Below, in pieces: positions 7,234 through 34,840 of a DNA stretch of 64,000 nt. The number at the start of each line of letters is the position of its first letter. Position 1 is the stretch's first letter. The notes below the pieces were generated by a model that was not told where the DNA came from, did no database searches, and was given only the letters and a program-made list of their open reading frames with translations. The stretch comes from a virus. The stretch lies in the IMG/VR virus record IMGVR_UViG_3300047444_000299, positions 64,001 through 128,000 of that record. One strand, written 5' to 3'. Position numbers and translations under genes: made by a program.

Positions 7234-7268
7234 ATTCTGTTTGGATTCAGATTCGGTTGTGGTATCAT
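7234..7268 (+). promoter_or_regulatory. Class B promoter
   Basis: Box ATTCTGTTTGG (7234-7244) and TATCAT (7263-7268), the same spacing as the other class B sites. The predicted transcription start falls on or next to the ATG at 7275. Confidence 0.75.
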
Positions 7269-7274
7269 AGAAGA

Positions 7275-7865
7275 ATGAAAACAAAATTAGTACAAGGTTA
7301 TGGGATTTACACGAAAGGCGTCTACAAATCTGAGATAGATGGTGATGAGGCTACGGAATATGGAATATGGGCGAGTATGATCAAACGGTGCCGCCCAGAC
7401 GGCAATTTACAATTGAGACAACCTGCATATATAGGCTGCTCAGTTCACCCAGATTTTATCAATTTCCAATGGTTTGCCGAATGGTGCCAATCCCAGATTG
7501 GGTTTGGCCTAAAAGGTTGGGCAATGGATAAAGATATTTTGATCCAAGGTAACAAGGTTTATGGGCCTGATACATGCTGTTTTGTCCCCAGAGAATTGAA
7601 TTTGATGTTAACCCATAAGCGCAAAAATCAGGGCGCGTACCCAACCGGCGTTAGCTATCACAAACAGTCTGGGAAATACAGAACACAGATTCATACCGAC
7701 GGGAAGAATCTGTGTATCGGAAGCTTCAAAACCCCCGAAGAAGCTTCCGAAGCCTATAAGGTGGCGAAGCTGGCTGAAATCCACCGCCAAGCTGACATCT
7801 ATAAGGAACGGATTGACCCCCGCGTTTACGCCGCACTGAAAGCCTATAGATTCGATTCAAAATAA
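7275..7865 (+). CDS. AP2-domain mobile endonuclease-like protein
   Basis: 196 aa. The N-terminal half has the pattern of HNH-type phage homing endonucleases with a WASMIKRC motif, W/F-rich spacing, and DKDIL...GPDTCCFVP near residues 90-110. The C-terminal half (about 121-170: GVSYHKQSGKYRTQIHTDGKNLCIGSF...EEASEAYKVAK) is a typical AP2 DNA-binding domain. Such genes are free-standing mobile elements that cut related genomes. The ATG at 7275 is chosen because the frame upstream overlaps the -10 box, which makes the mRNA nearly leaderless. It lies next to the repeat block, a likely insertion point. Confidence 0.7.
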   Translation: MKTKLVQGYGIYTKGVYKSEIDGDEATEYGIWASMIKRCRPDGNLQLRQPAYIGCSVHPDFINFQWFAEWCQSQIGFGLKGWAMDKDILIQGNKVYGPDTCCFVPRELNLMLTHKRKNQGAYPTGVSYHKQSGKYRTQIHTDGKNLCIGSFKTPEEASEAYKVAKLAEIHRQADIYKERIDPRVYAALKAYRFDSK

Positions 7866-33212: not shown

Positions 33213-33220
33213 TTGATCTT

Positions 33221-33248
33221 AAAAGGGAGCCGAAAGGCTCCTTTTTTT
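33221..33248 (+). terminator. Intrinsic terminator
   Basis: AAGGGAGCC-GAAA-GGCTCCTT followed by a T run. Confidence 0.85.
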
Positions 33249-33266
33249 GTAACTAAAGGAATTGTC

Positions 33267-33716
33267 ATGAGTAGAAATGGTTTCACTGATCCGAAGCAAG
33301 TTATTGTTGCTCGACTGGATCTAAAAATGCCTCCCGGTAAACTGGCGGCTCAGGTAGCTCATGCCTCAGTTGCGGTTTTGCTGAAACATGGCCGATGGGA
33401 AAACGATTTCCAATGTGGTGATCCTGATGTCCCACGCGATAAATTCGTGTTGCATCCAACCGAAGCAATGGAACATTGGATGAAAATTTCGTTCCCAAAA
33501 GCTGTTTTGGAAGCTAAAGACGAAATGGAAATGGAAATCCTGTACGCCGAAGCTCAAAGAGCTGGCTTGCCATGTTCCAAAGTCATTGATTCTGGTCGTA
33601 CCGTGTATAACGGCGAACACAATCTAACCTGTATCGCTATTGGCCCCGCCGAGCGATCTGAAATTGATAAAATCACAGGCCATTTGCCGCTGTACAAAGG
33701 GGTTTTTCATGGATGA
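33267..33716 (+). CDS. Type 2 peptidyl-tRNA hydrolase (Pth2-like)
   Basis: 149 aa. Pth2 pattern throughout: KQVIVARLDLKMPPGKLAAQVAHASV at the N-terminus, ILYAEAQRAGLPCSKVIDSGRT, LTCIAIGPAERSEIDKITGHLPLY at the C-terminus. The enzyme releases tRNA from stalled peptidyl-tRNA. A phage copy could rescue translation stalled by host defences (inference). ATG with AAAGGA; coupled to the next gene. Confidence 0.88.
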   Translation: MSRNGFTDPKQVIVARLDLKMPPGKLAAQVAHASVAVLLKHGRWENDFQCGDPDVPRDKFVLHPTEAMEHWMKISFPKAVLEAKDEMEMEILYAEAQRAGLPCSKVIDSGRTVYNGEHNLTCIAIGPAERSEIDKITGHLPLYKGVFHG

Positions 33717-33908: not shown

Positions 33909-34181
33909 ATGTCCGAACAAAATGAAGTTATGCCGGTCAATGAACTGCATATTTCCGTATCTGGTAAATCCCATATCGGCAAAACTGCGGTGATCGAATC
34001 CATCGCACACATCCTGTCAAGCCTTGGCTTGGTGGTTGTATTTGACCCAAATTCGCAGAACATGCGCGAACAGAACAACCAGATGCTTGACCCACAAGAC
34101 GCTCAAGACCGTCTAGCGGCGATTGTATTAAAAGGTAATCTGTTGGTTGTGTTGAATGAGACAAATGCTCGGCCTGCCTAA
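33909..34181 (+). CDS. Minimal P-loop protein (90 aa)
   Basis: Residues 19-26 (GKSHIGKT) form a Walker A within strand-loop-helix LHISVSGKSHIGKTAVIESIAHIL, and LVVVFDPNS and LLVVLNET follow as core strands. At 90 aa it covers only part of a P-loop NTPase fold and lacks an obvious Walker B Asp-Glu. Possibly a small nucleotide-binding phage protein; partner unknown. Confidence 0.65.
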   Translation: MSEQNEVMPVNELHISVSGKSHIGKTAVIESIAHILSSLGLVVVFDPNSQNMREQNNQMLDPQDAQDRLAAIVLKGNLLVVLNETNARPA

Positions 34182-34377
34182 GCCGATCAACACCAAATTG
34201 AGAGAAATACACGGCAAAACCTTGTATTTCTCTAATCGATCCCTGACCTATAAGGATTCGGAAGGGTTTGATTATGGGCGACATGAAATCGATTGGATGG
34301 TATCCAAAGGGATCGTGTTGCAAACCATCAATTTCCGGCTAATGGTCTACGAATTCACCGTCTCCCCGTACTACTAA
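34156..34377 (+). CDS. Hypothetical protein (73 aa)
   Basis: Unrecognised. Overlaps the P-loop gene by 26 nt. Basic N-terminus and a strand-rich C-terminus (VLQTINFRLMVYEFTVS). The start could instead be the in-frame ATG at 34165. Confidence 0.6.
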   Translation: MRQMLGLPKPINTKLREIHGKTLYFSNRSLTYKDSEGFDYGRHEIDWMVSKGIVLQTINFRLMVYEFTVSPYY

Positions 34378-34378
34378 T

Positions 34379-34840
34379 ATGAAGAAATCCATTTGGAAGC
34401 CGTGGGAAGACGGTCAGACGCATATCAACGTTTATAGTAAGGGTAAGACCGATCTAGGCCAATGGCTGTCCAATTTCGCTTATAGCCCGTTTAAACATCC
34501 TAAGTATGGATCATTTGATTCAATCGAAGGGTTTTGGTACTGGCTGTCTACCGGAATGCAATACGACAAGCTCCGAACCCTGCATGGTTATCTAGCCAAG
34601 GCTCAGGGTAAGAAATACGCGATCATCGAACACCCGAACTTTGAACAATGCATCAAAACTGCTATTCGTGCAAAGCTGATAGCCAACCCAGATCGTTTAA
34701 GACAGATTATCGACAATCCATTACCCCTGACGCATTACTATGTGTACGGCGACAAGGCTATGCACGCCGGGTATGAATGGATAACAGATTACTATCAAGA
34801 AATACGGCGAGCGTGTATCGCCAAGAACTACAGACCATAA
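34379..34840 (+). CDS. NADAR/YbiA-like protein
   Basis: 153 aa. Carries the pattern of the NADAR (DUF1768) fold: LSNFAYSPF, SIEGFWYWLSTG in the place of the SxExxYQ motif, LHGYLAKAQGKKY, then AIRAKLIANPDRLRQII and THYYVYGDKAMHAGYEW. NADAR proteins act on ADP-ribose-linked substrates and some reverse guanine ADP-ribosylation of DNA. Sequence is divergent, so the assignment is moderate. Three genes downstream of Pth2 in the same run. Confidence 0.6.
   Translation: MKKSIWKPWEDGQTHINVYSKGKTDLGQWLSNFAYSPFKHPKYGSFDSIEGFWYWLSTGMQYDKLRTLHGYLAKAQGKKYAIIEHPNFEQCIKTAIRAKLIANPDRLRQIIDNPLPLTHYYVYGDKAMHAGYEWITDYYQEIRRACIAKNYRP

Follow-up and report, generated by a model that had tools for sequence, protein, structure and literature searches.

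A stand-alone, His-type NADAR protein predicted in a T4-like virus as a sister to T4 gp30.3 with an altered phosphate-binding site

The window analyzed here, a stretch of 64,000 nucleotides from an IMG/VR virus (positions 64,001 to 128,000 of IMGVR_UViG_3300047444_000299, a 183-kb virus contig), carries at positions 34379 to 34840 on the + strand an ATG-initiated open reading frame (ORF) of 153 amino acids whose product almost certainly belongs to the NADAR family. Judged from its sequence and modeled fold, the protein is a stand-alone His-type phage NADAR whose subfamily is sister to that of T4 gp30.3 and whose phosphate-binding site is altered; the placement beside gp30.3 and the missing phosphate-binding lysine are what this analysis adds. 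As the best overall explanation we favor, with some reserve, a NADAR enzyme that would remove ADP-ribose (ADPr) adducts as a counter-defense.

A sequence-only reading of this DNA had proposed a divergent NADAR fold from motifs that included LSNFAY and SIEGFWYWL, with structure comparison to YbiA and other NADARs as the check. Both motifs lie in exactly the ORF that it named, at residues 30 to 35 and 48 to 56, respectively, and the proposed fold was borne out when the comparison was run. The AlphaFold2 model (58 sequences) covers the whole domain with a predicted local distance difference test (pLDDT) score of 96.0 and a predicted template modeling (pTM) score of 0.90. A Foldseek search of the PDB ranked YbiA 2b3w first (E value [E], 8.6e-5), followed by 8bau and 8bat (both at a probability of at least 0.98), with the remainder noise, while VIA-align gave Z scores of 11.7 for 2b3w, 10.3 for 8bau, and 9.1 for 8bat and returned no other chain at Z ≥ 2. 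All three are solved NADARs and are the only credible PDB matches; since both methods pick solely NADAR structures, the fold finding stands. In the viral structure library BFVD, the first-ranked match was Erwinia phage RAY gp153 (TM score, 0.91), and giant-virus proteins named as NADARs ranked lower.

Profile comparisons lead to the same family. A profile of 58 relatives searched against all PDB sequences returned 8bau, a NADAR-ADP-ribose complex, as the top match (E, 8.4e-4; next match, 0.23). In a Pfam scan of the same 58 relatives at a loose threshold, the two most frequent families were Phage_30_3, matched in 7 members (best value, 5e-4), and NADAR, matched in 3 (best value, 0.012), the others being scattered weak matches. 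The protein was placed in PHROGs 652 and 11222, each labeled "unknown function," and T4 gp30.3 also falls in PHROG 652. Furthermore, hhalign of the window family against the gp30.3 family alignment gave an E of 2.1e-11 over 134 columns, the full length. The annotators of phages Moabite and Muenster independently recorded that homologues match YbiA in HHpred at about 98%.

Length alone does not make this ORF significant, since shuffling the surrounding 3 kb 500 times yields an open frame at least as long in 29 cases. However, tblastn at E ≤ 0.01 matched 529 phage records, and a family scan identified 186 IMG/VR relatives; a search of bacterial genomes returned 8 relatives in metagenome-assembled genomes, on contigs that may be of phage or bacterial origin. 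The orthologue at locus L002, where the gene order matches, is 89% identical, with a nonsynonymous substitution rate (dN) of 0.059 against a synonymous rate (dS) of 0.58 (dN/dS, about 0.10), which indicates purifying selection. A chance ORF was thus ruled out, and we take the gene to be real because of its conservation in phage records and purifying selection rather than its length.

The residues and motifs on which the assignment to a His-type subfamily turns are as follows. Conservation was counted over 58 relatives, or over 8 sequences for the gp30.3 family, and residues of 8bau are numbered after Schuller et al. (PMC11543638).

34379..34840, + strand: stand-alone His-type phage NADAR, 153 amino acids (AlphaFold2, Foldseek, VIA-align, hhalign)
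34421..34441, + strand: N-terminal HINVYSK motif, residues 15 to 21; N17 invariant, H15 and S20 almost invariant; lines up with the NFYS strand of YbiA
34466..34483, + strand: LSNFAY, residues 30 to 35; common to YbiA, gp30.3, and 8bau
34526..34528, + strand: Glu50, 58/58; aligned with the distal-ribose Glu (E43 of 8bau, E88 of C7 NADAR)
34547..34549, + strand: Ser57, in place of the phosphate/adenine Lys (K50 of 8bau, K95 of C7 NADAR)
34598..34600, + strand: Lys74, K/R in 58/58; aligned with K75 of 8bau (K115 of C7 NADAR)
34733..34735, + strand: His119, 58/58; aligned with His123 of gp30.3 (8/8); proposed counterpart of the catalytic Glu/Asp
34778..34780, + strand: Trp134, 56/58; aligned with W133 of 8bau (pyrophosphate contact)

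In addition, Lys78 aligns with R79 of 8bau. According to Schuller et al. (PMC11543638), the catalytic Glu of NADARs gives way to Asp in the BC4488 subfamily and to His in phage members, and His119 fits this rule, as it is invariant and aligned with gp30.3 His123. The pairing of the two histidines comes from the profile comparison with the gp30.3 family alignment. At the position of Ser57, sequence alignment places a basic residue in 19 of the 58 relatives, and the lysine that marks the DarT1 type, which most but not all of the superfamily retains, is lacking in the window protein; the gp30.3 relatives carry K/R at this K50 position in all 8 sequences.

ADP-ribosyl N-glycosidase activity of the window NADAR is probable. 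The enzyme would be made together with the phage DNA-metabolism genes and would cleave the N-glycosidic bond between ADP-ribose and a base, for which guanine in DNA or RNA is best precedented. His119 would stand in for the catalytic Glu/Asp, while Glu50 would hold the distal ribose. Adducts set by a host ADP-ribosyltransferase (ART) defense, either DarT1-like or another ART, would thereby be removed, allowing phage replication to proceed. T4 gp30.3 hydrolyzes guanosine-ADPr on DNA in vitro (PMC11125620), T4 NADAR is also active on RNA carrying guanosine-ADPr, with lower efficiency than C7 NADAR (PMC11833690), and Cihlova et al. proposed that phage NADARs guard phage DNA from host ARTs. Guanine adducts in nucleic acid may be named, with moderate confidence, as the single most likely substrate; that a nucleic-acid adduct is the main physiological substrate we would place just short of an even judgment. 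Guanine de-ADP-ribosylation that shields phage DNA from DarT toxins, as the sequence-only reading had suggested, is a plausible idea with precedent.

Several results weigh against this interpretation. The single-sequence Pfam scan of the protein gave zero matches, and a single-sequence phmmer search of the PDB gave chance matches to TGF-beta only; we attribute both blanks to divergence, as profile and fold comparison resolved the family. In the active site, Ser57 replaces a lysine that is essential in C7 NADAR, the W89 loop of 8bau is missing, and R93 is replaced by Phe. When the protein was aligned with YbiA and 8bau in MAFFT, the C-terminal strand stayed unresolved and His119 fell one column off gp30.3 His123, and we infer the equivalence of His119 to E125 of YbiA-type NADARs from strand order and the published statement, in a stretch that sequence alignment leaves unresolved. 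Finally, gp30.3 failed to rescue E. coli from DarT1 (PMC11125620). Since the K95 position is Ser57 and this nearest tested relative gave no rescue, protection specifically against DarT1 is plausible but less likely than not.

The strongest alternative retains the fold and chemistry and changes the substrate to a small ADP-ribose derivative, such as signals of the cyclic ADP-ribose (cADPR) type or ADPr phosphates from TIR, Sir2, or RNA-repair systems, so that the gene would counter signaling defenses based on nicotinamide adenine dinucleotide (NAD) and not DNA ADP-ribosylation. The authors of PMC9503650 predicted such small substrates for the Macro, NADAR, and SLOG proteins of phages; they favor soluble ADPr derivatives and describe a viral NAD/ADPr network with fused architectures like those among our IMG/VR relatives. 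There we found DUF4326-NADAR-YAcAr-SLOG fusions (L030, L045, and L074) as well as fusions to DUF4326 alone (L037), Macro (L053), or YAcAr-SLOG alone (L032), and Macro, DUF4326, and YAcAr-SLOG are predicted partners in an ADP-ribose pathway; these recurrent fusions also count for the favored reading of the protein as an ADP-ribose hydrolase. For the DUF4326 and SLOG domains, the presumed substrates are soluble ADPr products. Furthermore, at 153 amino acids the protein is about the size of a bare YbiA-like domain, too short to hold in addition the DNA-binding extension at the N terminus of DarT1-linked NADARs, and we count the Ser at the C7 K95 position in favor of a small derivative as well. 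On the other side, NADARs with measured activity, gp30.3 included, use guanine-ADPr of DNA and RNA as substrate, and the literature searched yielded no measured NADAR activity on cADPR. We regard a small-derivative substrate as possible, though clearly less likely than removal of adducts.

Two other fusions were considered as support for a DNA substrate and dropped, each having been seen once. Locus L033 (2986 to 5874) encodes NADAR, a 3'-5' exonuclease, and a family A DNA polymerase in one ORF of 963 amino acids, and a scan found polymerase relatives and no second NADAR fusion. Locus L094 (2998 to 4623) joins NADAR to a PD-(D/E)XK nuclease domain, again with no second copy in a scan for further such fusions. 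Because neither recurred, they carry little weight. Among the relatives, the annotated start of L018 (1501 to 1959; Salmonella phage GG32) lies about 100 bases downstream of where homology begins, and the gene start is therefore probably misannotated.

Genome context bears on a second alternative. The source virus is T4-like as judged by its major capsid gene, 81.5% identical in nucleotide sequence to that of Pseudomonas phage Astolliot, and its DNA ligase, 62.6% identical to that of Astolliot. Listed as neighbors of the NADAR gene are PTH2 and then small ORFs on one side and endonuclease VII, PhoH, and ligase, in this order, on the other (no search aimed at DarT was made), an arrangement that L002 shares. 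Two further ORFs of the window belong here.

34156..34377, + strand: upstream ORF of 73 amino acids, separated from the NADAR start by one base; order kept at L002
8691..9167, + strand: Macro-domain protein (Pfam Macro, E 1.7e-6), a further ADP-ribose-pathway gene in the same phage

The one-base gap and its order at L002 are consistent with translational coupling of the 73-amino-acid ORF with the NADAR gene. The Macro-domain ORF is presumably the first ADP-ribose gene implied by the earlier reading, which had titled the NADAR-like gene the second; Macro matches likewise occur in the contigs of L002 and L024, in Astolliot, and in T4. Astolliot, which of the isolated relatives found is the closest, lacks the NADAR gene itself and retains the order endonuclease VII, PhoH, ligase, so that the gene behaves as accessory cargo. 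That Astolliot lacks NADAR and keeps Macro has been counted for the view that the window NADAR clears ADP-ribosylation or NAD by-products of the phage's own enzymes (T4-like ARTs or RNA repair). However, the spread of the family through jumbo phages, Ackermannviridae, and Otagovirus again suggests accessory cargo, and phage ARTs such as Alt modify proteins and not guanine, making such clean-up quite improbable. Less probable still is a catalytically dead fold serving as a binding module, for which the loss of several 8bau ADP-ribose contacts speaks and against which stand invariant Glu50 and His119, a Lys74 position that is always K/R, and the low dN/dS.

A further reading that we advance tentatively is that a large phage-specific subfamily of the His119 type, with a shortened loop and a K50/K95 position that is not strictly basic, has shifted its substrate and counters a defense other than DarT1. 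The shifted substrate might, for example, be a soluble immune signal derived from NAD or another adducted base. The analysis gives a name and likely chemistry to a protein marked unknown in general libraries, whose relatives occur in over 500 phage records. A subfamily without a residue that is essential in the DarT1 antitoxin also makes substrate choice in phage NADARs testable.

Other features of the window were noted in passing. PTH2, a peptidyl-tRNA hydrolase (33213 to 33716, + strand; Pfam E, 1.7e-31), lies a few ORFs upstream of NADAR in this T4-like phage. An AP2 DNA-binding domain-like protein (7257 to 7865, + strand) matches Pfam AP2 at E 3e-6, under the curated cutoff; the AP2 domain is frequent in homing endonucleases. 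The T4 late-promoter core TATAAATA occurs in 9 copies, both strands counted, against 2.3 expected, with 8 of the 9 on the - strand, and several copies sit directly upstream of - strand ORFs in the 45- to 60-kb part of the window.

Phage NADARs, and phage enzymes that neutralize DarTG1, are already published. Johannesman et al. in 2025 (Nat Commun 16:1598) reportedly described phage orphan antitoxin-like enzymes that neutralize DarTG1; these enzymes, named AdfN, are reportedly orphan NADARs, as is the window protein. The DarT1-linked NADAR (DarG1; E. coli C7 and G. lovleyi 8bat) shares its fold and distal-ribose Glu with the window protein and differs from it in having a proposed DNA-binding N-terminal extension, a catalytic Asp, and an essential K95, where the window protein carries His119 and Ser57; DarG1 is encoded beside darT1. 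E. coli YbiA, with riboflavin intermediates and guanine-ADPr as substrates, is likewise a bare NADAR domain (2b3w; Z, 11.7) with the conserved Glu, although its catalytic residue is Glu and not His and identity is about 20%. T4 gp30.3 has in common with the window protein its PHROG, a full-length profile match, the invariant Glu and His, and a place upstream of DNA ligase gene 30 in a T4-like phage; unlike the window protein, it has Trp at the W89 position and Gln at the Lys74 position, and pairwise BLAST gives 33% identity over 54 amino acids. Jumbo-phage and Otagovirus proteins resemble the window protein much more closely (45 to 56%) than gp30.3 does. Among these, Erwinia phage RAY gp153, a jumbo-phage NADAR-SLOG fusion annotated as "DprA-like," shares the fold and 48.6% identity in its NADAR half and differs in its extra C-terminal YAcAr/SLOG domain.
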